A DNA stretch of 64,000 nt from the NCBI GenBank assembly GCA_027081115.1, contig JALWLD010000112.1:1-64000 (forward strand), written 5' to 3'. A model generated the notes under the pieces. It saw nothing but the letters and a program-made list of their open reading frames with translations. It was not told where the DNA came from and did no database searches. Numbering within the stretch: the stretch's first letter is position 1; each line of letters starts with the position of its first letter. The position numbers and the translations under genes are program-made. The DNA is from Sulfurovum sp. (lineage in GTDB: Bacteria; Campylobacterota; Campylobacteria; Campylobacterales; Sulfurovaceae). This document shows positions 8,072 through 45,617 of the stretch, piece after piece.

Positions 8072-9218
8072 CGTACCTCTTTAAAAATGCTTCCACAACA
8101 TAAAAAGACCCAAAAACAAGATAATCTTCATTGTTGTCTATCTGATTTTTAAACTCACTGTATGACAAATCAATGTTTTGCAAAGCATTTTCTATTTGAT
8201 CCAGAGTTGTTGCCCTTTGTGACTCTATCTTTATAATTTCAACCCGTTTCACCTTTGGCTTTAAAATAGACAGCACTTCTTCATAATCCTTATCATCCAA
8301 AGAATTATAGATCAGGACTACTTTTTTATCCAAAGCTTTAGCTATTGCTTTTGCTGCCAAAGGATTATGTCCAACATCAATCCGAATATTTTTAGTTAAC
8401 GGATAAAAACGTCCAAAAAGTTCTAAATTCTCAAGATTGTGGACTTGATATGATATACCCATTATATCTAAAGCCTTTAGTGCAACTTTCGCATTATCTA
8501 TAAGATAAGAGGGCCAGGCATTTTGTATAGCAATATGCTCTAGTACTTCAGGAATACTAAATTCAGCATACTGAACATTAAATATTTTAGCACCTTTTTG
8601 TGCTGAAATATTTTTTGCCACGTTAATAACCTCATCATAAACCTGAGGTGCCAACAGTACATTATTTTGTATACTTCGTATCTTTGTAGTGGCAATCTCT
8701 TCTATAGTCGTGCCTAAAAAAGCCTGATGATCTACACCTATAGGTGTAATAATACTTAGCTCTTTGTCACATACATTCGTTGCATCAAATTCTCCTCCAA
8801 GTCCTGCCTCCAAGACCATTAAATCACACTTCTCAAACACCATAAATGACAACAGTGTTGTATACTCAAAATAGGAGAGTTGCTCTGATATCTCTTGACC
8901 TAAAAGTATAAAAAGTTTTTGATGTGCCTCTTCCAGAATTTCATCTGAAACATCAACCCCATTAATCCAAATACGTTCATTAAATTTTAAAATATGTGGA
9001 GAAGAGTAATGCCCGACGGATAAACCACTTTTATATGCCAGATGAGCTATCATACGACCTGTAGAACCTTTACCGTTTGTCCCTACGATATGTATGGTTT
9101 TAGGACATCTAATATGGGGGGTTAAGCATGCATAAGCTCTATGTACACGCTCATGATCTATCTCTTTATAGTAGAGGGGTTTTGTATTTAGGAAACTATC
9201 TAAAGAGACTACTGACAC
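8058..9218 (-). CDS. folC: Dihydrofolate synthase / folylpolyglutamate synthase
   Basis: 386 residues. Mur-ligase-like ATP site GTNGKGSTGRMI near residue 47, LEAGLGGEFDATN and GVDHQAFLG in the central domain, and RIDVGHNPLAA opening the C-terminal domain. The enzyme adds glutamate to dihydropteroate and to folates. The 3' end overlaps mfd by 14 bases, and the lptE-like gene ends 12 bases upstream. Confidence 0.92.
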   Translation of the reverse strand: MSVVSLDSFLNTKPLYYKEIDHERVHRAYACLTPHIRCPKTIHIVGTNGKGSTGRMIAHLAYKSGLSVGHYSSPHILKFNERIWINGVDVSDEILEEAHQKLFILLGQEISEQLSYFEYTTLLSFMVFEKCDLMVLEAGLGGEFDATNVCDKELSIITPIGVDHQAFLGTTIEEIATTKIRSIQNNVLLAPQVYDEVINVAKNISAQKGAKIFNVQYAEFSIPEVLEHIAIQNAWPSYLIDNAKVALKALDIMGISYQVHNLENLELFGRFYPLTKNIRIDVGHNPLAAKAIAKALDKKVVLIYNSLDDKDYEEVLSILKPKVKRVEIIKIESQRATTLDQIENALQNIDLSYSEFKNQIDNNEDYLVFGSFYVVEAFLKRYDVSK

Positions 9219-38541: not shown

Positions 38542-38757
38542 TTATTTATCTGCACACTCATCACAATAGTACTTGCCATGAATAAGGATGCTCTCTTTCA
38601 CTGTTACATAGGTACTGCATTTTTCACACTCTACCAAAGTATCTTCATCAAGCTTTTTTTCTGACTGACTCTTGCCACCAATTGTAGGGAGTTTACCTCC
38701 AAAAAATTTATAAATGAAGTAACCCGCTACTGCAAATATTATAAGTTTTAAGATCAT
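38542..38757 (-). CDS. Small membrane protein with zinc ribbon, PP0621-like
   Basis: 71 residues. One N-terminal helix ([17 protein letters not shown]), a charged linker and a two-pair Cys motif CEKCSTYV...YYCDECADK, resembling PP0621-family proteins. Start overlaps the rsmG stop by four bases (ATGA). Function unknown. Confidence 0.8.
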
Positions 38758-39344
38758 TTTTGTGCCTTGATATACAGATAGTTTCTCTGGTTTTTTTGTA
38801 CTATATCATAATCTAACTGATGTTGCACATCTTCAATTTCATCAAAAACCCTACTACCTTTATAGAAAAGGTATTGTGTCTGAGGACTACTGATATCTTT
38901 TGTCAATTCTAAAAGTAGTTTCGTGTTGGTCACCGCCCGCGATGAGATAAGTTTAAAGGCTTCATGCTCTACAAACTCTACCCTCTTGGCTTCCACTTTA
39001 ACATTAGATAATTCAAGATCAATGCTGGCATATTTTAAAAAAGAAACACGTTTTTTTAAAGGCTCGGCTAACACCACTTCGGTTTGTGGCAATGCAATGG
39101 CCAGTACCAAACCAGGAAAGCCGGCACCTGTACCAACATCAAGCAGTGTTTCAGGGTTTGTGATAAAATTCAAAGGATACAATGAATCTACAACATTATC
39201 ATAAATCGTTGCAATATTTTTTGCCCCTGTGAGGTTATGTATCTGATTCCATTCATGTAATAAACATGTAAATTGCTCTAACTTTTTCACAATTTTATCT
39301 GAGAGTAGTATCTCTTCTTCTTTCAATAACGCTTTTAAATCCAT
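38754..39344 (-). CDS. rsmG: 16S rRNA (guanine-527-N7)-methyltransferase
   Basis: 196 residues. SAM site [34 protein letters not shown]-like N-terminal segment ([15 protein letters not shown]) and SSRAVTN. Modifies G527 of 16S rRNA. Starts on the base after the PqqD-like gene stop. Confidence 0.95.
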
Positions 39345-39620
39345 TTATACTTCAACCTTAAGCAAACCATTTTCTTTCAACTTTTCAACAAAAGTAATAA
39401 GGTCTTTTTTCAAAACTTCATCTTCAACATCATACTGCATCAATAAAACTTTAAAAACTTCATCTAAGGTCTCATTCTCCTGCATTGCATTCCAAATATC
39501 TGTACCAACAACATCAAGTCCAAAATAATTTTCAGAATTCATATCTAGTAAGACCATCTCACCATCTACTTCCTGTGCAAATACCGTCTCTGCAAAGGTT
39601 ACTTTACTATTCATATCCAT
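39345..39620 (-). CDS. PqqD-like peptide chaperone / RiPP recognition protein
   Basis: 91 residues. EMVLLDMNSENYFGLDVVGT, WNAMQE and a helical LITFVEKLKENGLL end follow PqqD-family proteins, whose winged-helix RRE domain binds leader peptides. Starts at an ATG sharing a base with the stop of the DsbC-like gene. Paired in this cluster with an HprK-related kinase and a small Tat-leader peptide, an association known from HPr-rel-A type systems and lasso-peptide loci. No lasso cyclase or leader peptidase is in the window. Confidence 0.85.
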   Translation of the reverse strand: MDMNSKVTFAETVFAQEVDGEMVLLDMNSENYFGLDVVGTDIWNAMQENETLDEVFKVLLMQYDVEDEVLKKDLITFVEKLKENGLLKVEV

Positions 39621-40366
39621 TATTTTTGTAGACCTTTTAAAACTTGATCCTGGGAGATAGGGTTAAAATTAGCATCATACAACGCCGGTGTCCCTCGCAT
39701 ATTCACCTCTCTTGCTGCTGCTTCAGATCTTTTTTTATAAACTTGTACTTCAGGAGAGTGTACAAATGGTTTTTTCACATCTTTAATGAGCTCTGTATAC
39801 TTTGTTGAATCTTTAAGCATCACATCTTCAAAACGTATTTTCTTTTCCGTATCATCTTTACCCATCATGATCCACTCTATCATAGCTGGAGATTTTTTAT
39901 GAAAAGAGAGAGGGAAAAGTATGACATGTACTGTATAGTCATTTAATCTTCCTTTTGCTTCCTCTTCAAATTTACTACAGTACGGACATTCCGGATCTGT
40001 AATCAAATATATCTCCTCCTTTCCATTCCCATACGTAAATGCCACACCATCTTTAATAATTTTTGGATCTTTTGGAAACTCAATGGCATGCCCCTCTTTA
40101 TCATATGCCGAACCAATGTAAAGCTCCGATGTCTTTTTATCTAAAAAAGCTGTAATATTTTGTGAACCCTGTGGCGATCTTGCTTCAAGTTTCAATATAT
40201 AACTCTCAGGCTTTTCAATAGCACCTTTTATAGTAAGTACCGGATCCTGTAGAACTTTATTCATTTTTTTAAGATCCAGAAATTTAGCCGAGTCTACCAT
40301 GTTTTCTTTAGCAAAAAGTGGGTTAAACAGTATAACTACGGTAAGCATAAATAGTTGGGTTTTCAT
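39620..40366 (-). CDS. DsbC/DsbG-like periplasmic thiol-disulfide oxidoreductase
   Basis: 248 residues. Signal peptide (1-19), N-terminal dimerisation-like region, then a thioredoxin fold with active site CPYC in ITDPECPYCSKFEEE and cis-Pro in MRGTPALYD. Probably reshuffles or reduces disulfides in envelope proteins such as the Cys-rich LamG protein of the same cluster. Has its own probable promoter and is coupled to the PqqD-like gene. Confidence 0.88.
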   Translation of the reverse strand: MKTQLFMLTVVILFNPLFAKENMVDSAKFLDLKKMNKVLQDPVLTIKGAIEKPESYILKLEARSPQGSQNITAFLDKKTSELYIGSAYDKEGHAIEFPKDPKIIKDGVAFTYGNGKEEIYLITDPECPYCSKFEEEAKGRLNDYTVHVILFPLSFHKKSPAMIEWIMMGKDDTEKKIRFEDVMLKDSTKYTELIKDVKKPFVHSPEVQVYKKRSEAAAREVNMRGTPALYDANFNPISQDQVLKGLQK

Positions 40367-40398
40367 GAGGATTTCCTTAAAGTATTATATATTTTCAG

Positions 40399-40404
40399 AG
40401 TATA
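40399..40404 (-). promoter_or_regulatory. Candidate -10 of the DsbC-PqqD transcript
   Basis: TATACT about 35 bases before the DsbC-like ATG in the 140-base gap after the kinase gene; AAGGAAA is the ribosome site. Confidence 0.4.
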
Positions 40405-40488
40405 ACATAAAATTATTTTTTCACTGTTTTGCATATCGAGATTTTTGCTGCATTTAAACGCACCCTACAAAACTCAAATTTATATTGA

Positions 40489-40507
40489 ACAAAAAGTCTT
40501 AAGACTT
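40489..40507 (-). terminator. Weak terminator after the HprK-related gene
   Basis: AAGTCTTAAGACTT followed by TTTTTG on the minus strand, starting at the stop codon. The stem is short (five pairs with a TTAA loop), so readthrough is likely. Confidence 0.35.
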
Positions 40508-41391
40508 CATATTTTACAGTTATGTGCTACGATTGCATCATACACTTCAGGCAATCTTTCCAAATCCCAGGGAATAGTTATGTTGTATACTCTAACCGAT
40601 TGTGCCATCTCTGTAAAAAATACAAATCTCTCTTTTTTCATAAAATCAAAATCAATAAAACTGCTGTAGTGAAAGGCTTTGAACTTCTCTATGCCTTTGA
40701 GTTCTACTATGCTGACCTCTGCATCTGTTTCCACTTTTTCAAGTCTATAGACAGCATGTATAGGTTTGATTTCAGTCGAAAAGTTTTCAACGTAGTAACC
40801 CAAAGTTTCAAGTTCACGATAAGGTCTGTGAAAAGGGTAGGAAGGGACTGCATAATAGCCATTATCTCTTTTTTCTACACCCAAGGAGTCATCTGAAAGA
40901 AGTGTATGCCCATGCTGTAGAAAGTAGTCCGTCAATGTAGATTTCCCACCAAAAGAAAAAGCTGAAAAAAAAACAGCTTTACCTTCTATCTCAACAGATC
41001 CCACATGCAAAATACGATAATTTCTTTCCAGCTCAAGTACCAGTGGGAAAAAGGTATGCAGACACCAGAATCGTAAGCGTTCCGGGGCATACTGTTTACT
41101 TTTATAGTAAAGAATTTCCCTTTTTTGAACATTCCAGGCAAGAGTTAGGACATTTACAATCTCAATTCCCCATGAAAAATCTTTACCTGCATTATTAAAA
41201 TCTCTTACACTTAAATAGTAAACTTCTTGTCCCGACATAGGTATTAAATTACTTTTTCTTGTAAGCCTAAGATCCTCAATGCATGTTGAATCTTCAATAA
41301 CTTTAATTGTTTCCAATGAATCATTAGTCGGTCTTTGCATATTGAGTTGAGCTTCATTGATGAAAAGAATATTTTTATTAAAAACGATCAT
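40507..41391 (-). CDS. HprK-related kinase
   Basis: 294 residues. P-loop FFSAFSFGGKSTL (about 142-153) and a Walker-B-like LLSDDSLGVE (165-173), the two HPr-kinase C-terminal-domain signatures; no HPr substrate or N-terminal HprK domain is present. Such kinases occur next to PqqD-like proteins and small peptides, and in some lasso-peptide clusters related kinases phosphorylate a serine of the precursor. Here the only small peptide candidate is the next gene upstream. AAGGTC precedes the ATG. Confidence 0.8.
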   Translation of the reverse strand: MIVFNKNILFINEAQLNMQRPTNDSLETIKVIEDSTCIEDLRLTRKSNLIPMSGQEVYYLSVRDFNNAGKDFSWGIEIVNVLTLAWNVQKREILYYKSKQYAPERLRFWCLHTFFPLVLELERNYRILHVGSVEIEGKAVFFSAFSFGGKSTLTDYFLQHGHTLLSDDSLGVEKRDNGYYAVPSYPFHRPYRELETLGYYVENFSTEIKPIHAVYRLEKVETDAEVSIVELKGIEKFKAFHYSSFIDFDFMKKERFVFFTEMAQSVRVYNITIPWDLERLPEVYDAIVAHNCKI

Positions 41392-41423
41392 AAATGACCT
41401 TGAGAAAAGAAATTATACTGTAA

Positions 41424-41633
41424 TTACCATACAGGAGGTCCAGGAACAGAGTTCCGTGCTTGCACATCCGTAGGCTTGACAAGTTGTCCCAATACCATCA
41501 AAACCGGTGCAGCATATACAGATTTCTTTAAAAAATGACGTCTTGAATATTCTTCCTGATCTTTTTCGGCAATAGACAAAGCACTTTCTTCTTCTAACTT
41601 TTTAGGCGCATTCATATTTTGTGCTTTCTTCAT
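41424..41633 (-). CDS. Small Tat-leader peptide, candidate precursor
   Basis: 69 residues, no Cys. Basic/acidic N-terminus, twin-arginine SRRHFLKK (Arg31-32), hydrophobic SVYAAPVLMVLGQL, then VQA|RN as a likely signal-peptidase site after Ala59. That would leave RNSVPGPPVW, a ten-residue product with one serine and a C-terminal Trp. GGGAG lies eight bases before the ATG, which shares a base with the upstream lipoprotein stop (TAATG). The following kinase starts 32 bases downstream. I know of similar small 'RR.FLKK...YVAPV' proteins beside PqqD/HprK-like genes but cannot verify this. Confidence 0.75.
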   Translation of the reverse strand: MKKAQNMNAPKKLEEESALSIAEKDQEEYSRRHFLKKSVYAAPVLMVLGQLVKPTDVQARNSVPGPPVW

Positions 41634-42340
41634 TATTTACTCCCAGATGAAGTAAGCATACTATCGGGTAAAACTACCCATTCAAATGTCTTTTCAGTTT
41701 TACCGTTCATGTTAAAATAATATACTTTAGCCTGATTTCCAGATAAAACATTTATAGTATTACCGGTATCAACATCGATCAGTTGCATATTTTTTATAAT
41801 CGGATTAGACATCGATCTTGTCTCATCATATCGTTGTCTGTCCTCTGTATCGATATAAGGTTCAAGTACGTATATCCCTCTCCAGGTCAATGCCATCTGT
41901 GCATTGACATTATCGGTTCTTACCGTAAATCGCCATCTGTACTCACTATTTTCAGAGAACTGCTGAAAATTTGTTTTATAATCTCCGGCATCCACACCTA
42001 CAGGGTCTTGAAAAACAATATCAATATAATCACTACCCATAGGAGGAAGAGTAATTAATGTATGTTTTACAGTAGCTTGTTCTTCATCAAGCACTCCTAG
42101 TTGAGCATTTGAAGATATAATCTGCGTTGAAGTATCTTCTGCTTGCAGACGAATATACCAGTTAATTGCTTTTTCTTCCATAATACTTCTTTTTGATGGT
42201 ACTATATCCTCGTTATCTGTATTATCAGCAGTGTTAACACTATTGAAGATACTGGAATTTACTACATCATTTGAAATATCACAACCCACTAAGATAATCA
42301 TTAGTATCAAAAGGTAAAAAAACTTCTTTATTTTTAACAT
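41633..42340 (-). CDS. Lipoprotein of unknown function
   Basis: 235 residues. Lipobox ILVGC (Cys20), then a Ser/Asn/Asp-rich linker (about 21-50), then a beta-rich domain that includes WRFTVRTDNVNAQMALTWRG and a sequence with 'WVVLPDSM' near the end. No family recognised. Starts three bases after the LamG gene stop and overlaps the Tat-peptide gene by one base. Confidence 0.75.
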   Translation of the reverse strand: MLKIKKFFYLLILMIILVGCDISNDVVNSSIFNSVNTADNTDNEDIVPSKRSIMEEKAINWYIRLQAEDTSTQIISSNAQLGVLDEEQATVKHTLITLPPMGSDYIDIVFQDPVGVDAGDYKTNFQQFSENSEYRWRFTVRTDNVNAQMALTWRGIYVLEPYIDTEDRQRYDETRSMSNPIIKNMQLIDVDTGNTINVLSGNQAKVYYFNMNGKTEKTFEWVVLPDSMLTSSGSK

Positions 42341-42343
42341 TTT

Positions 42344-44488
42344 TTACTCCTCTGGTATAAGCAGCTTCACTACTTTCCCTTTTGTAGGACCATGTAGTTC
42401 CATCCAAAAACCTTTATATGGTATGAGTTGACATCCTCCTGGGGTAACGTCATTACATGTTGTGTACCCCTTACCATCTGCACTGCTACTGGAAGGGTTG
42501 TACTGCCATATCTGATTCTTTATATAGCCTGCCGTTTCAGCTGAACTCGGTGTATAGGACACATCATCTATCAAAATACGACAATCTGCCCAATTAACCG
42601 GCTTCTTACCTACAGCACCTGTCAAATTATATCTGTACGGACCAGTACCAAGAAGATCATCTACACCATCCTCTAATGCAACAGGCCGTATATCTATCTC
42701 AACACAGCTAACTGCAGGACAATCTGGACTTGGTGAGTTATAATTAACTGACTCTATATCATTGACATCCCATGTCGCACTTTGTAAACTTCGTAACCAG
42801 TACCCTTTTCCAAACTCCAGTGACGTATTTAAGTCAAGATATTCGTACCAACTGCTATTATTGGTATCACTGTAACCTCTCCCGTATACACGCCAGTCGG
42901 TACCATAATTCGTAGTAATATCGTCCCCAATTAGATCTGCCACTGTAAATGTTCCCGTTCTCAGATCTGCAGGGATACCAATAAGTTCCCATACACCGGC
43001 ATTTACAATTGCATTACAAGTATTACAAGTTCGTGTTGTACCATCATAATTATTACCTGCCGATTCATTTGTATAAATGTCTTGTACTTCTGTAGCAGTT
43101 AAAGCATAATTCCAAAACTTTACTTCATCAATACTCCCTAGCCACTTATCATCATATTGATCACTTAAGTCATTTCCAATAAAGAGTGCTTCAGCAACTG
43201 CTGTTATTGCCGATGAGTAAGCTACATTCTGAATTTCTACACCATTTTTATAAATTCTAAGATTCGTACCATCATACACACCGACAATATGATTCCAGGT
43301 ATTCATATCTAAAGCTGCACTCACACTATTATCTCTACCATTAACAAAAAACTTGATACTTGTATTATCAGCAGCATTATTTGCTAGTCCAAAACCATCA
43401 TCCCAATTTTCTGTACTTGTTTTCATAACTGCTGCTACCCAATCAACAACAGATGTTCCGGTAACAGGAAAAAGCCATGCAGATATTGTAAGTTCTGTAG
43501 ATAATTCATCTAAAACTGTCGTATCCTCTACCCGTACTCTATCTCCAACAGTTCCAAAAGTACCGTAGTTACATATAGGTGGATTCAAAGTATTGGTAGT
43601 CACAGTAGCTGCACCTTCAGATGTTGCATCTTTCCCAAACGGTGAACTATCCTGCACATCTCCAACAATGGCACTATTGTTGAACCAAAAACACTCATCC
43701 ATACGGTACTCAACCCTTGCATTATCTGGGTATATTTTGATAGAAAACTGCTGCCCTACTGATTCTCCATCCTTATCTGAAGCATATAGCGTGACTATTT
43801 GAGACTCTTGTACTGTAGGTGTCCCAGATATTATACCTGTCGCTGTATCGAATGAAAGACCGGAGGGAAGAGTCCCATCTAATCGATAGCCAGTTATCGG
43901 ATCGCCATCAGTCTCCATAACATATATTGATGTATCAAACAAAAAAGCGTCCCCTATTGTTCCAATCTGATTTGGAACAGTATTGACATCAGGGGGTAAA
44001 TCAGGATCTGCATTGTAAATAGTCAGTGTTGCATAGTTATAGGTACCGGTGTCTCCAGCAGCATCATCACAAACGGTCAAAGTCCATATACCGGCTGAAT
44101 CTTCCCCGCCAAATGTATTCAAGGGCTGTTCAGGCTGTCTTGAAACAACTGAATTCTGATTAGCATTGTCATCTACAATGGATGTAGCTGCCGAATCATC
44201 AAATATTGTATATAGATTATTTTTATTTCCTCCATTATCACTGGTCAGATCAACCGCTGTTCCTAATGGTGATGTCAAACTAATATCAAGATCAGCACGC
44301 CAACTATGGTCTATATTCACTTCTATGATCACATCCGTAACTATTGAAGAGGTTGGGATATCAAATGTCCTGTCAAAGCAGGTATTGTCATTTACTGGAG
44401 TTGATACAGAATCTGTAACAGAAATACTTCCAGCATTTAAAAATATGGGAAGCAATACTAATATCAAAAATAATTTTATGTTTTTCAT
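42344..44488 (-). CDS. Surface/secreted protein with P-domain, Ig-like and LamG domains
   Basis: 714 residues. Signal peptide 1-19. P/Homo-B domain (about 20-155; IDHSWRADLDISLTSPLGT, GIWTLTVCDDAAGDTG), a cadherin-like He_PIG module (about 160-255; DGTLPSGLSFDTATGIISGTP), a LamG/concanavalin-like module (about 260-475; WNHIVGVYDGTNLRIYKNGV, GSIDEVKFWNYAL), then a C-terminal domain with WRVYGRGYSD, GKGYWLRSL and several Cys pairs. It should be a sugar- or protein-binding envelope protein. Lead gene of the peptide cassette; AT-rich start region with a candidate -10 further upstream. Confidence 0.8.
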   Translation of the reverse strand: MKNIKLFLILVLLPIFLNAGSISVTDSVSTPVNDNTCFDRTFDIPTSSIVTDVIIEVNIDHSWRADLDISLTSPLGTAVDLTSDNGGNKNNLYTIFDDSAATSIVDDNANQNSVVSRQPEQPLNTFGGEDSAGIWTLTVCDDAAGDTGTYNYATLTIYNADPDLPPDVNTVPNQIGTIGDAFLFDTSIYVMETDGDPITGYRLDGTLPSGLSFDTATGIISGTPTVQESQIVTLYASDKDGESVGQQFSIKIYPDNARVEYRMDECFWFNNSAIVGDVQDSSPFGKDATSEGAATVTTNTLNPPICNYGTFGTVGDRVRVEDTTVLDELSTELTISAWLFPVTGTSVVDWVAAVMKTSTENWDDGFGLANNAADNTSIKFFVNGRDNSVSAALDMNTWNHIVGVYDGTNLRIYKNGVEIQNVAYSSAITAVAEALFIGNDLSDQYDDKWLGSIDEVKFWNYALTATEVQDIYTNESAGNNYDGTTRTCNTCNAIVNAGVWELIGIPADLRTGTFTVADLIGDDITTNYGTDWRVYGRGYSDTNNSSWYEYLDLNTSLEFGKGYWLRSLQSATWDVNDIESVNYNSPSPDCPAVSCVEIDIRPVALEDGVDDLLGTGPYRYNLTGAVGKKPVNWADCRILIDDVSYTPSSAETAGYIKNQIWQYNPSSSSADGKGYTTCNDVTPGGCQLIPYKGFWMELHGPTKGKVVKLLIPEE

Positions 44489-45041
44489 TTCTTAACATAT
44501 TCTCCGTACAATATATTTATACCAACACTTTCATGCACATCATTTAAAAATTTTATCCAATAAGATCATACTATAATTTTTGTTAACAAAGTATTAATAG
44601 CTATGTATATACTAAGTATATACTTAAAAATTATTACAAAAAATGTCATATTTATGTTATTGTTAAATTAGGTTTTAAGCTCTGATTATGATGATCAGTA
44701 TTTGACACACTTAGAGAACTAACGCAGTAAATAATATATAACTATGAAACTATGAAAACATCTCTTTTCACAGTAATATATAAAAGTATCGACAAACGCC
44801 TATCCAATATTTGATTAGCAAAAAGTTCTGGACTTGACCACTACGATTCACATCATAACAACAGCAACCCACTTCAAAACATACAGGCCAAAAACCTGAA
44901 GACCTTCTCCAAACTGAAACTGGGTAGAAAGGGCAAAGACGTGGCATTTTATTACACCACATCAATGGATATAGTGTTCATTTATTTTTTAGAAAAATAT
45001 TTTTTCTGTACTTTTAAAATATAACATATTGGGCATGATTT
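44489..45041. other. Gene-free AT-rich spacer between the LamG gene and ribA
   Basis: 553 bases with no convincing gene. It holds the promoter region of the LamG gene, a 19-base palindrome (44605-44623) and, at about 44812-44980 on plus, a 60-odd-codon frame without a start (LAKSSGLDHYDSHHNNSNPL then QNIQAKNLKTFSKLKLGRKG) that looks like coding relic; its codon use is less AT-rich than the flanks. The minus-strand frame there, rich in Cys, looks like its shadow. Confidence 0.6.
44605..44623. repeat. Perfect odd palindrome, possible operator
   Basis: GTATATACT-A-AGTATATAC, 117 to 135 bases upstream of the LamG gene start, in otherwise AT-rich DNA. Confidence 0.5.
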
Positions 45042-45617
45042 TTAAAGTAAGTGCCCCAGTTGATCTTTCTTTACTTGAAGATAGTCTTCATTATATGGAT
45101 TGGGGGTAATCTGAATAGGGATACGCTTTACAATGTCTATATCGGGGAGACTTTCCATTTTGGCAGGGTTGTTTGTAAGAAGTTTGAGTTTTTTAATACC
45201 AAAGTGTTTTAAGATAAACTCAACGATCTCATAGGTACGTTCATCGGCCCTAAAACCCAACTGGTGGTTTGCTGCTACTGTATCAAAACCTGTATCCTGC
45301 AAAGCGTAAGCATTGACTTTGTTAAGTAACCCTATGTTTCTTCCTTCTTGTCTATGATAAATTATCATACCACCCTCTTTGGCTATTAGAGACTGTGCAT
45401 AAGTGAGCTGTTCTCCACAGTCACACTTTGCAGAACCAAGTGCATCTCCGGTCAAACACTCAGAGTGTACACGTACAATCGGAGCTTCTATCTCTTTAAG
45501 ATTTTCAGTAAAGAGAGCCAGGTGTTCTTTACCTTCAGCATCTTTAAATGCCTGGATTTTGAAGGTGCCGTACTGGGTTGGTAATGTAGCAATTTGTGAG
45601 ATTTCTATGTTGTTCAT
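45042..45617 (-). CDS. ribA: GTP cyclohydrolase II
   Basis: 191 residues, standalone form. Zinc Cys triad in CLTGDALGSAKCDCGEQL, HRQEGRNIGL and LGFRADERTYE. First step of riboflavin synthesis from GTP. Single gene divergent from hemB. Confidence 0.95.
   Translation of the reverse strand: MNNIEISQIATLPTQYGTFKIQAFKDAEGKEHLALFTENLKEIEAPIVRVHSECLTGDALGSAKCDCGEQLTYAQSLIAKEGGMIIYHRQEGRNIGLLNKVNAYALQDTGFDTVAANHQLGFRADERTYEIVEFILKHFGIKKLKLLTNNPAKMESLPDIDIVKRIPIQITPNPYNEDYLQVKKDQLGHLL

Follow-up and report, generated by a model that had tools for sequence, protein, structure and literature searches.

The open reading frame (ORF) described here probably encodes the precursor of a linear peptide of the RiPP type, guided by a RiPP-recognition element (RRE) and itself probably phosphorylated, in which a single leader would act both as RRE ligand and as Tat signal. 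As far as sequences can indicate, this reading draws on a conserved peptide family, a double motif within its leader, the types of RRE and kinase encoded alongside, their linkage to the peptide gene and co-occurrence with it across genomes, and lasso-type relatives that occupy the same slot. The ORF product is MKKAQNMNAPKKLEEESALSIAEKDQEEYSRRHFLKKSVYAAPVLMVLGQLVKPTDVQARNSVPGPPVW, and its position within the window (the whole stretch of DNA analysed, 64,000 nucleotides) is given in Table 1 with those of the neighbouring features. The preliminary description of this DNA had singled out a twin-arginine ORF with a short exported tail; the ORF does carry SRRHFLKK and a C-terminal part reading ...DVQA-RNSVPGPPVW, and the tail has the one serine, the Arg-Asn start and the C-terminal Trp attributed to it, but the two Pro pairs reported there are one Pro pair and one single Pro.

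Table 1. Positions in the window of the peptide ORF, its parts and the genes around it.
Feature	Coordinates	Strand	Basis or remark
rsmG-like gene (presumed identity), one border of the slot	38754..39344	-	
PqqD-family discrete RRE (lasso B1 type), 91 aa	39345..39620	-	profile matches
DsbG-like exported thioredoxin-fold protein (PECPYC)	39620..40366	-	in some cassettes only
HprK-like kinase, 294 aa	40507..41391	-	profile, model, motifs
Precursor peptide, 69 aa, with overlapping Tat/RRE leader and Pro-rich tail	41424..41633	-	sequence, family profile
Tail RNSVPGPPVW, candidate core	41427..41456	-	sequence, family comparison
Ala59, predicted signal-peptidase site (VQA)	41457..41459	-	conservation at Tyr+19
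Thr55 at Tyr+15, spaced as the leader Thr of lasso/LPP precursors	41469..41471	-	alignment
YAAPVL, predicted lasso/LPP-type RRE-binding motif, residues 40-45	41499..41516	-	motif as defined in excerpts of PMC13381572
RRHFLKK, Tat motif, residues 31-37, preceded by Ser30	41523..41543	-	sequence; profile alignment
Cassette lipoprotein (VGC lipobox), 235 aa, beta-rich	41633..42340	-	stop overlaps peptide start
Large exported protein with P-domain, putative Ig and LamG domains	42344..44488	-	
ribA-like gene (presumed identity), other border of the slot	45042..45617	-	

The cassette genes share one strand, with those for the kinase, the DsbG-like protein and PqqD downstream of the peptide and those for the lipoprotein and the P-domain/LamG protein upstream; the DsbG-like gene of the window sits between kinase and RRE. 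The start of the peptide ORF overlaps the stop of the lipoprotein gene by 1 base, and a tight junction of this kind (start within about 15 bases of the stop) was found in 18 of the 22 members with a lipoprotein gene no more than 200 bases away. A model of the lipoprotein (pLDDT 82.3) had no match among solved structures at E 0.001 or better, and the NCBIfam model of the TafC family fimbrial protein, a name that we could not trace in the open-licence literature, matches the P-domain/LamG protein below threshold. Many of the cassette lipoproteins (L092-L123) end in short tags, FGLPP or FD(L/M/I)..PP, and another small protein, encoded in the L124/L144 cassette (L144:1273-1677, minus strand), bears FGEPPL. 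At three loci (L107, L108 and L109) a Wzc-like chain-length/tyrosine-kinase gene directly follows the Tat peptide, the tail of which is there longer and basic.

The peptide belongs to an unnamed conserved family of 37 distinct members, nearly all of them from Campylobacterota, which were collected from 32 fetched neighbourhoods, the window and two earlier loci. A search with the window peptide as a single sequence retrieves relatives within the genus, with orthologues at 72-75% identity; Pfam gave no match to it and NCBIfam gave sub-threshold matches only. A family profile built on 19 members was searched against 78 genomes of the genus and a draw of 298 from the phylum. Strong matches (E below 1e-11) came from 25 genomes of the genus set and from 8 of the phylum draw, these 8 being four from the genus, three from elsewhere in the family and one from another family of the order. 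Outside Campylobacterota the cassette was seen at L032, in a metagenome-assembled genome labelled Thermodesulfobacteriota (G379), which was itself the only one of 247 genomes drawn from that phylum to contain it, hence transfer or misbinning of G379 is indicated; a second match in that genome (L150) was set aside as an apparent formate-region TAT protein. Over 51 pairs the pooled pN/pS of the leader was 0.24, which looks like purifying selection, the value being biased low because the pairs had been preselected at more than 72% leader identity.

In the leader a Tat motif, SRRxFLKK, runs straight into YxAPxLxxLGxLxKPT, followed by an AxA site. R31, R32, F34 and L35 are invariant in all 19 rows of the family alignment, and the twin-basic pair is RR in 35 of the 37 members and KR in the other two (L120 and L123). 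The pattern [Y/W]xxPx[L/V/I/A/F/Y] and a Gly at Tyr+9 both occur in 37/37, the motif count being partly circular because the Y and P positions were built into the 19-row search profile. The Tyr or Trp stands nine residues past the first basic residue in 36/37, and Lys or Arg is found at Tyr+13, ahead of the predicted cut, in 31/37. At Tyr+15 the residue is Thr in 20 members and Ser in five of the 37, and the leader Thr is thus not fixed. The predicted cleavage residue falls at Tyr+19 in 35/37 (34 Ala, one Gly), and the recurrence of Ala at this position argues for the cleavage after VQA that had been proposed earlier. Among 18 control Tat signals from the fetched loci, 11 of which look like one protein family, the RRE motif was found in none.

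Discrete lasso RREs take a motif of the YxxPxL type as their ligand, and LPP precursors share it, according to the excerpted text of PMC13381572, and in BsfA the motif spans positions -17 to -12 (PMC10368454, likewise in excerpt), which places the penultimate leader residue at Tyr+15. Aligned with nine local lasso-type precursors the family falls in register (hhalign E 7.9e-4, probability 24.7, the motif being short), and aligned with other Tat signals it matches through RRxFLKK (hhalign E 2.3e-10), whereas those Tat signals and the local lasso leaders gave no alignment with each other; the leader is therefore a composite. The preliminary description recognised the twin-arginine helix and overlooked both the RRE-binding motif laid over it and the link to lasso peptides. 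It is this overlay that makes the neighbouring PqqD protein the likely receptor of the leader.

The profile of that protein matches solved lasso-type RREs best, TbiB1 first (1.3e-21), then PbaB1 (9x90, 1.7e-17), TfuB1 (1.4e-9) and LppB (9x8z, 9.8e-8), with PQQ-type PqqD reaching just 0.02. In LppB, residue D70 hydrogen-bonds and holds the leader Tyr (excerpts of PMC13381572); by our own residue matching it is aligned with D73 of the window protein, an invariant Asp in 15/15 RRE rows, and LppB F74 with F77, while LppB N33 is aligned with Asp36, TbiB1 likewise having an Asp there. Among the 78 genomes of the genus the RRE is present in 23 of the 25 that have the peptide and was not found in the other two (G005 and G343, 78% and 88% complete); conversely, 38 of the 43 genomes with the RRE have either the peptide or the lasso-type B2 peptidase. 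B2 was not found in 16 of the 25 peptide genomes, and 15 genomes of the genus, that of the window included, combine peptide, RRE and kinase with no B2 found. Nine peptide genomes also have B2, and six of these nine show a single RRE match.

The kinase occurs in 25/25 peptide genomes against 16/53 peptide-free ones of the same 78. GGKST and DD are invariant in 23/23 of these kinases, and the kinase profile aligns to solved HprK over a stretch running from a conserved His by way of the P-loop to the Asp pair. The model (pLDDT 92.7) has PEPCK and HprK as its top PDB matches, with query TM-scores of 0.33-0.41, and accordingly just the core fits; the modelled fold with P-loop and Asp pair would be that of the HPr kinase family, while the sequence scores far under the NCBIfam and Pfam cut-offs. 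In a tree of 51 rows (matches of at least 200 residues, locus L143 left out) a clade with 100/100 support holds 31 rows: 24 peptide-adjacent, two lasso-adjacent and five others. The missing peptide at these five tells little, as three lie near contig ends (L125, L127 and L141), one lies beside unknown bases (L031) and one is a second, broken copy in L115. The peptide-adjacent kinases of L115 and L121 (two of 26) fall outside this main clade. At L092 (G377), about 8140-9012, the kinase adjoining the Tat peptide is divided between two frames, with AsnB-like fragments nearby.

HprK-like kinases accompanied by a PqqD-type RRE phosphorylate Ser3 of lasso and LPP cores (PMC10368454 and PMC13381572, both as excerpted); in the LPP case an S3T change abolished phosphorylation (excerpts of PMC13381572), and in BsfA phosphorylation persisted when Y, P and L of the motif were changed together (excerpts of PMC10368454). 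The earlier suggestion that the tail is itself a product fits these precedents as well as the co-occurrence with the kinase, and the idea that its serine serves the kinase is plausible. The single Ser as an invariable phosphorylation site was not upheld, since Ser is absent from two of the 37 tails and varies in position among the rest.

Across the 37 members the tail measures 10-38 residues, the ten of the window lying at the short end. Ser is present in 35 tails, PP in 31 and Trp in 26; Ser or Thr is present in all 37, which says little, as 31.7 would be expected at 12% Ser+Thr. Counting from the predicted cut, Ser is the third residue (+3) in the window, as it is in 14/37 members, Ser or Thr stands at +2 or +3 in 25/37 (shuffled mean 10.7), and Trp lies among the last five residues in 24 (shuffled mean 9.7), PP itself exceeding a shuffled mean of 17.2. 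None of 5000 within-tail shuffles reached any of these three enrichments, the related sequences being non-independent. The tail is thus conserved in kind but not letter by letter, and extension past the Trp, which had been named as evidence against a ten-residue product, amounts to at least four residues in 4/37, all of them distant homologues, whereas the closest relatives end at W or WG.

The interval between ribA and rsmG (window 38754-45617; L092-L143) is, in this genus, a variable slot that holds lasso-type clusters, Tat-peptide cassettes or both. In most of 20 stretches, drawn mainly around kinases of peptide-free genomes, the slot encodes a kinase and PqqD along with an ABC exporter, a transglutaminase-like peptidase (B2) and a cyclase resembling asparagine synthase; YSEPQLKEIGRIKESTKGG and YKTPSIIIMGSMVKITQGG are examples of the short precursors found there. 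Thr is found at Tyr+15 in 9/9 aligned local lasso-type precursors, which also carry Lys-rich stretches ahead of the Tyr. At L124, in genome G024, a lasso-type precursor of 59 aa (...KKPYSSPKIEIIANVRMATKGSTIGGTDSGGQSANVPSDPGGW) is encoded in the slot, next to the lipoprotein gene, and its tail, PSDPGGW, closely resembles the end of the L116 Tat peptide, ...FGGPPSDPSGW, and the kinases of L124, L126 and L116 form a group with 100/100 support inside the 31-row clade. We would tentatively go one step further and suggest a Tat-routed class of RiPPs, with a leader read first by the RRE and then by Tat and the RRE acting as an export-proofreading chaperone, in which leaders have possibly been exchanged during evolution, so that one kinase lineage would accompany PSDPxGW tails borne in some cases by a lasso scaffold (with B2, cyclase and ABC exporter) and in others by a Tat leader.

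For the peptide of the window we infer the following course of binding, phosphorylation, hold-back, export and cleavage. The PqqD-like RRE would bind YxAPxLxxLGxLxKPT as a beta strand, hold the precursor in the cytoplasm and offer its short tail for phosphorylation, on a Ser or Thr, by the HprK-like kinase. As the RRE would cover the hydrophobic part of the Tat signal, export would be delayed until modification is complete, as NapD is thought to do on NapA. After release the precursor would pass through Tat and be cut by signal peptidase after AxA, and a Pro/Gly/Trp-rich tail of 10 to 38 residues would reach the periplasm, there to lie next to the lipoprotein and LamG protein that the operon also encodes.

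It is unlikely, in our estimate, that the peptide is simply a small protein exported or anchored through Tat, with a tail that docks onto the lipoprotein or LamG protein and an RRE and kinase that serve something else. The Tat motif is strong, the L097 member passes the TIGR01409 cut-off, and the type of tail does track the C-terminal tag of the lipoprotein: tails of the [FL]G.PP type pair with [FL]GLPP lipoproteins in 6/7 cases, against 0/24 for other tails (Fisher 1e-5; lineages repeat), in a table of members with a lipoprotein within 6 kb that omits one of the two L108 members, the lipoprotein of which would lie beyond the contig end. The window's own lipoprotein has no such tag. This account leaves unexplained why YxxPxL, Gly+9 and Thr+15 stand in the register of the local lasso leaders and why a very similar tail is found on the lasso leader of L124, and in the 15 genomes mentioned above the RRE and kinase would have no B2-type lasso system to serve.

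Rather improbable, too, is a precursor of LPP or lasso type in which the twin arginines are not used by Tat and merely form part of a basic stretch before the RRE motif, with cleavage and export by other means. The Lys-rich stretches of the local lasso precursors, the KR pairs of L120 and L123 and a mature part far too short to need Tat would suit such a precursor, but the full SRRxFLK consensus, the Ala at Tyr+19 and the Lys or Arg before the cut would not, nor would the 16 peptide genomes in which B2 was not found or the six cassette proteins scanned in the window, none of which matched a peptidase family or an ABC exporter. That the ORF is spurious, or the decayed remnant of a larger Tat protein, is hardly credible and was rejected, for despite a short and variable tail it is kept in dozens of genomes, is short throughout and has a constrained leader and the close orthologues described above.

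If the reading of a modified, Tat-exported peptide is correct, the leader of a RiPP-type precursor would double as a Tat signal, offering a simple way of coupling peptide modification to export with neither a dedicated peptidase nor an ABC exporter. Kinase-dependent RRE peptides would thereby reach a second kind of bacteria, and their conserved surface-protein partners there would hint at a function.

Compared with known Tat substrates, the peptide has S/T-R-R-x-F-L-K and an AxA site, and the genome of the window encodes TatC (E 1.1e-69). Tat cargo is normally folded, but here 10 residues follow the site, leaving no folded mature domain. The formate dehydrogenase region TAT target (TIGR02811) is likewise a tiny protein with a Tat motif, but the short proteins among our matches that look like it, and that are putatively of this type, have no YxxPxL and have other tails. 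In the NapD-NapA system, as described in excerpts of PMC3712460, the epitope bound by the chaperone can overlap the Tat motif, and the likeness lies in a cytoplasmic protein that would bind inside the Tat signal and so order modification before export; NapD binds a helical signal and has another fold, unlike an RRE, the ligand of which is a beta strand. Among the open-licence literature matches listed we recognised no paper on RiPP precursors with a Tat signal or on lasso or RRE systems of Campylobacterota.

A lasso peptide is suggested by the RRE motif YAAPVL of the leader. A lasso core, however, starts with Gly and has an acidic residue at positions 7-9, and RNSVPGPPVW has neither Gly1 nor any acidic residue, while the B2 leader peptidase (PF13471) was not found in the genome of the window (G000). 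The closest lasso systems are those with a tailoring kinase (BsfA/BsfK, with paeninodin cited alongside, in excerpts of PMC10368454), which share YxxPxL, a B1-type RRE, an HprK-like kinase and Thr or Ile at Tyr+15, and sister genomes carry lasso clusters in this slot. Unlike the BsfA/BsfK type as excerpted there, the window cassette has no cyclase, its genome no B2 that was found and its tail no Gly1 or ring acid.

With the LPPs (linear polyphosphorylated peptides) of Bacillota, as far as the excerpted text of PMC13381572 describes them, the features in common are a discrete lasso-type RRE, an HprK-like kinase (here below the curated family cut-offs), a YxxP leader, no cyclase, a linear product and cleavage of signal-peptidase type (both predicted here), and polysaccharide genes nearby (here the Wzc-like gene of L107-L109). 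The archaeal-type SpI peptidase, NTP-transferase and MsbA-like exporter of LPP systems were absent among the six scanned cassette proteins of the window, and differences from the LPPs of those excerpts include the Tat motif, the AxA site, the lipoprotein and LamG partners, another phylum and a phosphorylation that is here only predicted. Filing the peptide as a lasso peptide or as an LPP was therefore rejected on the defining parts and the mechanism retained: by those parts it is neither, and as far as its sequence can tell it would work like an LPP with a Tat leader.
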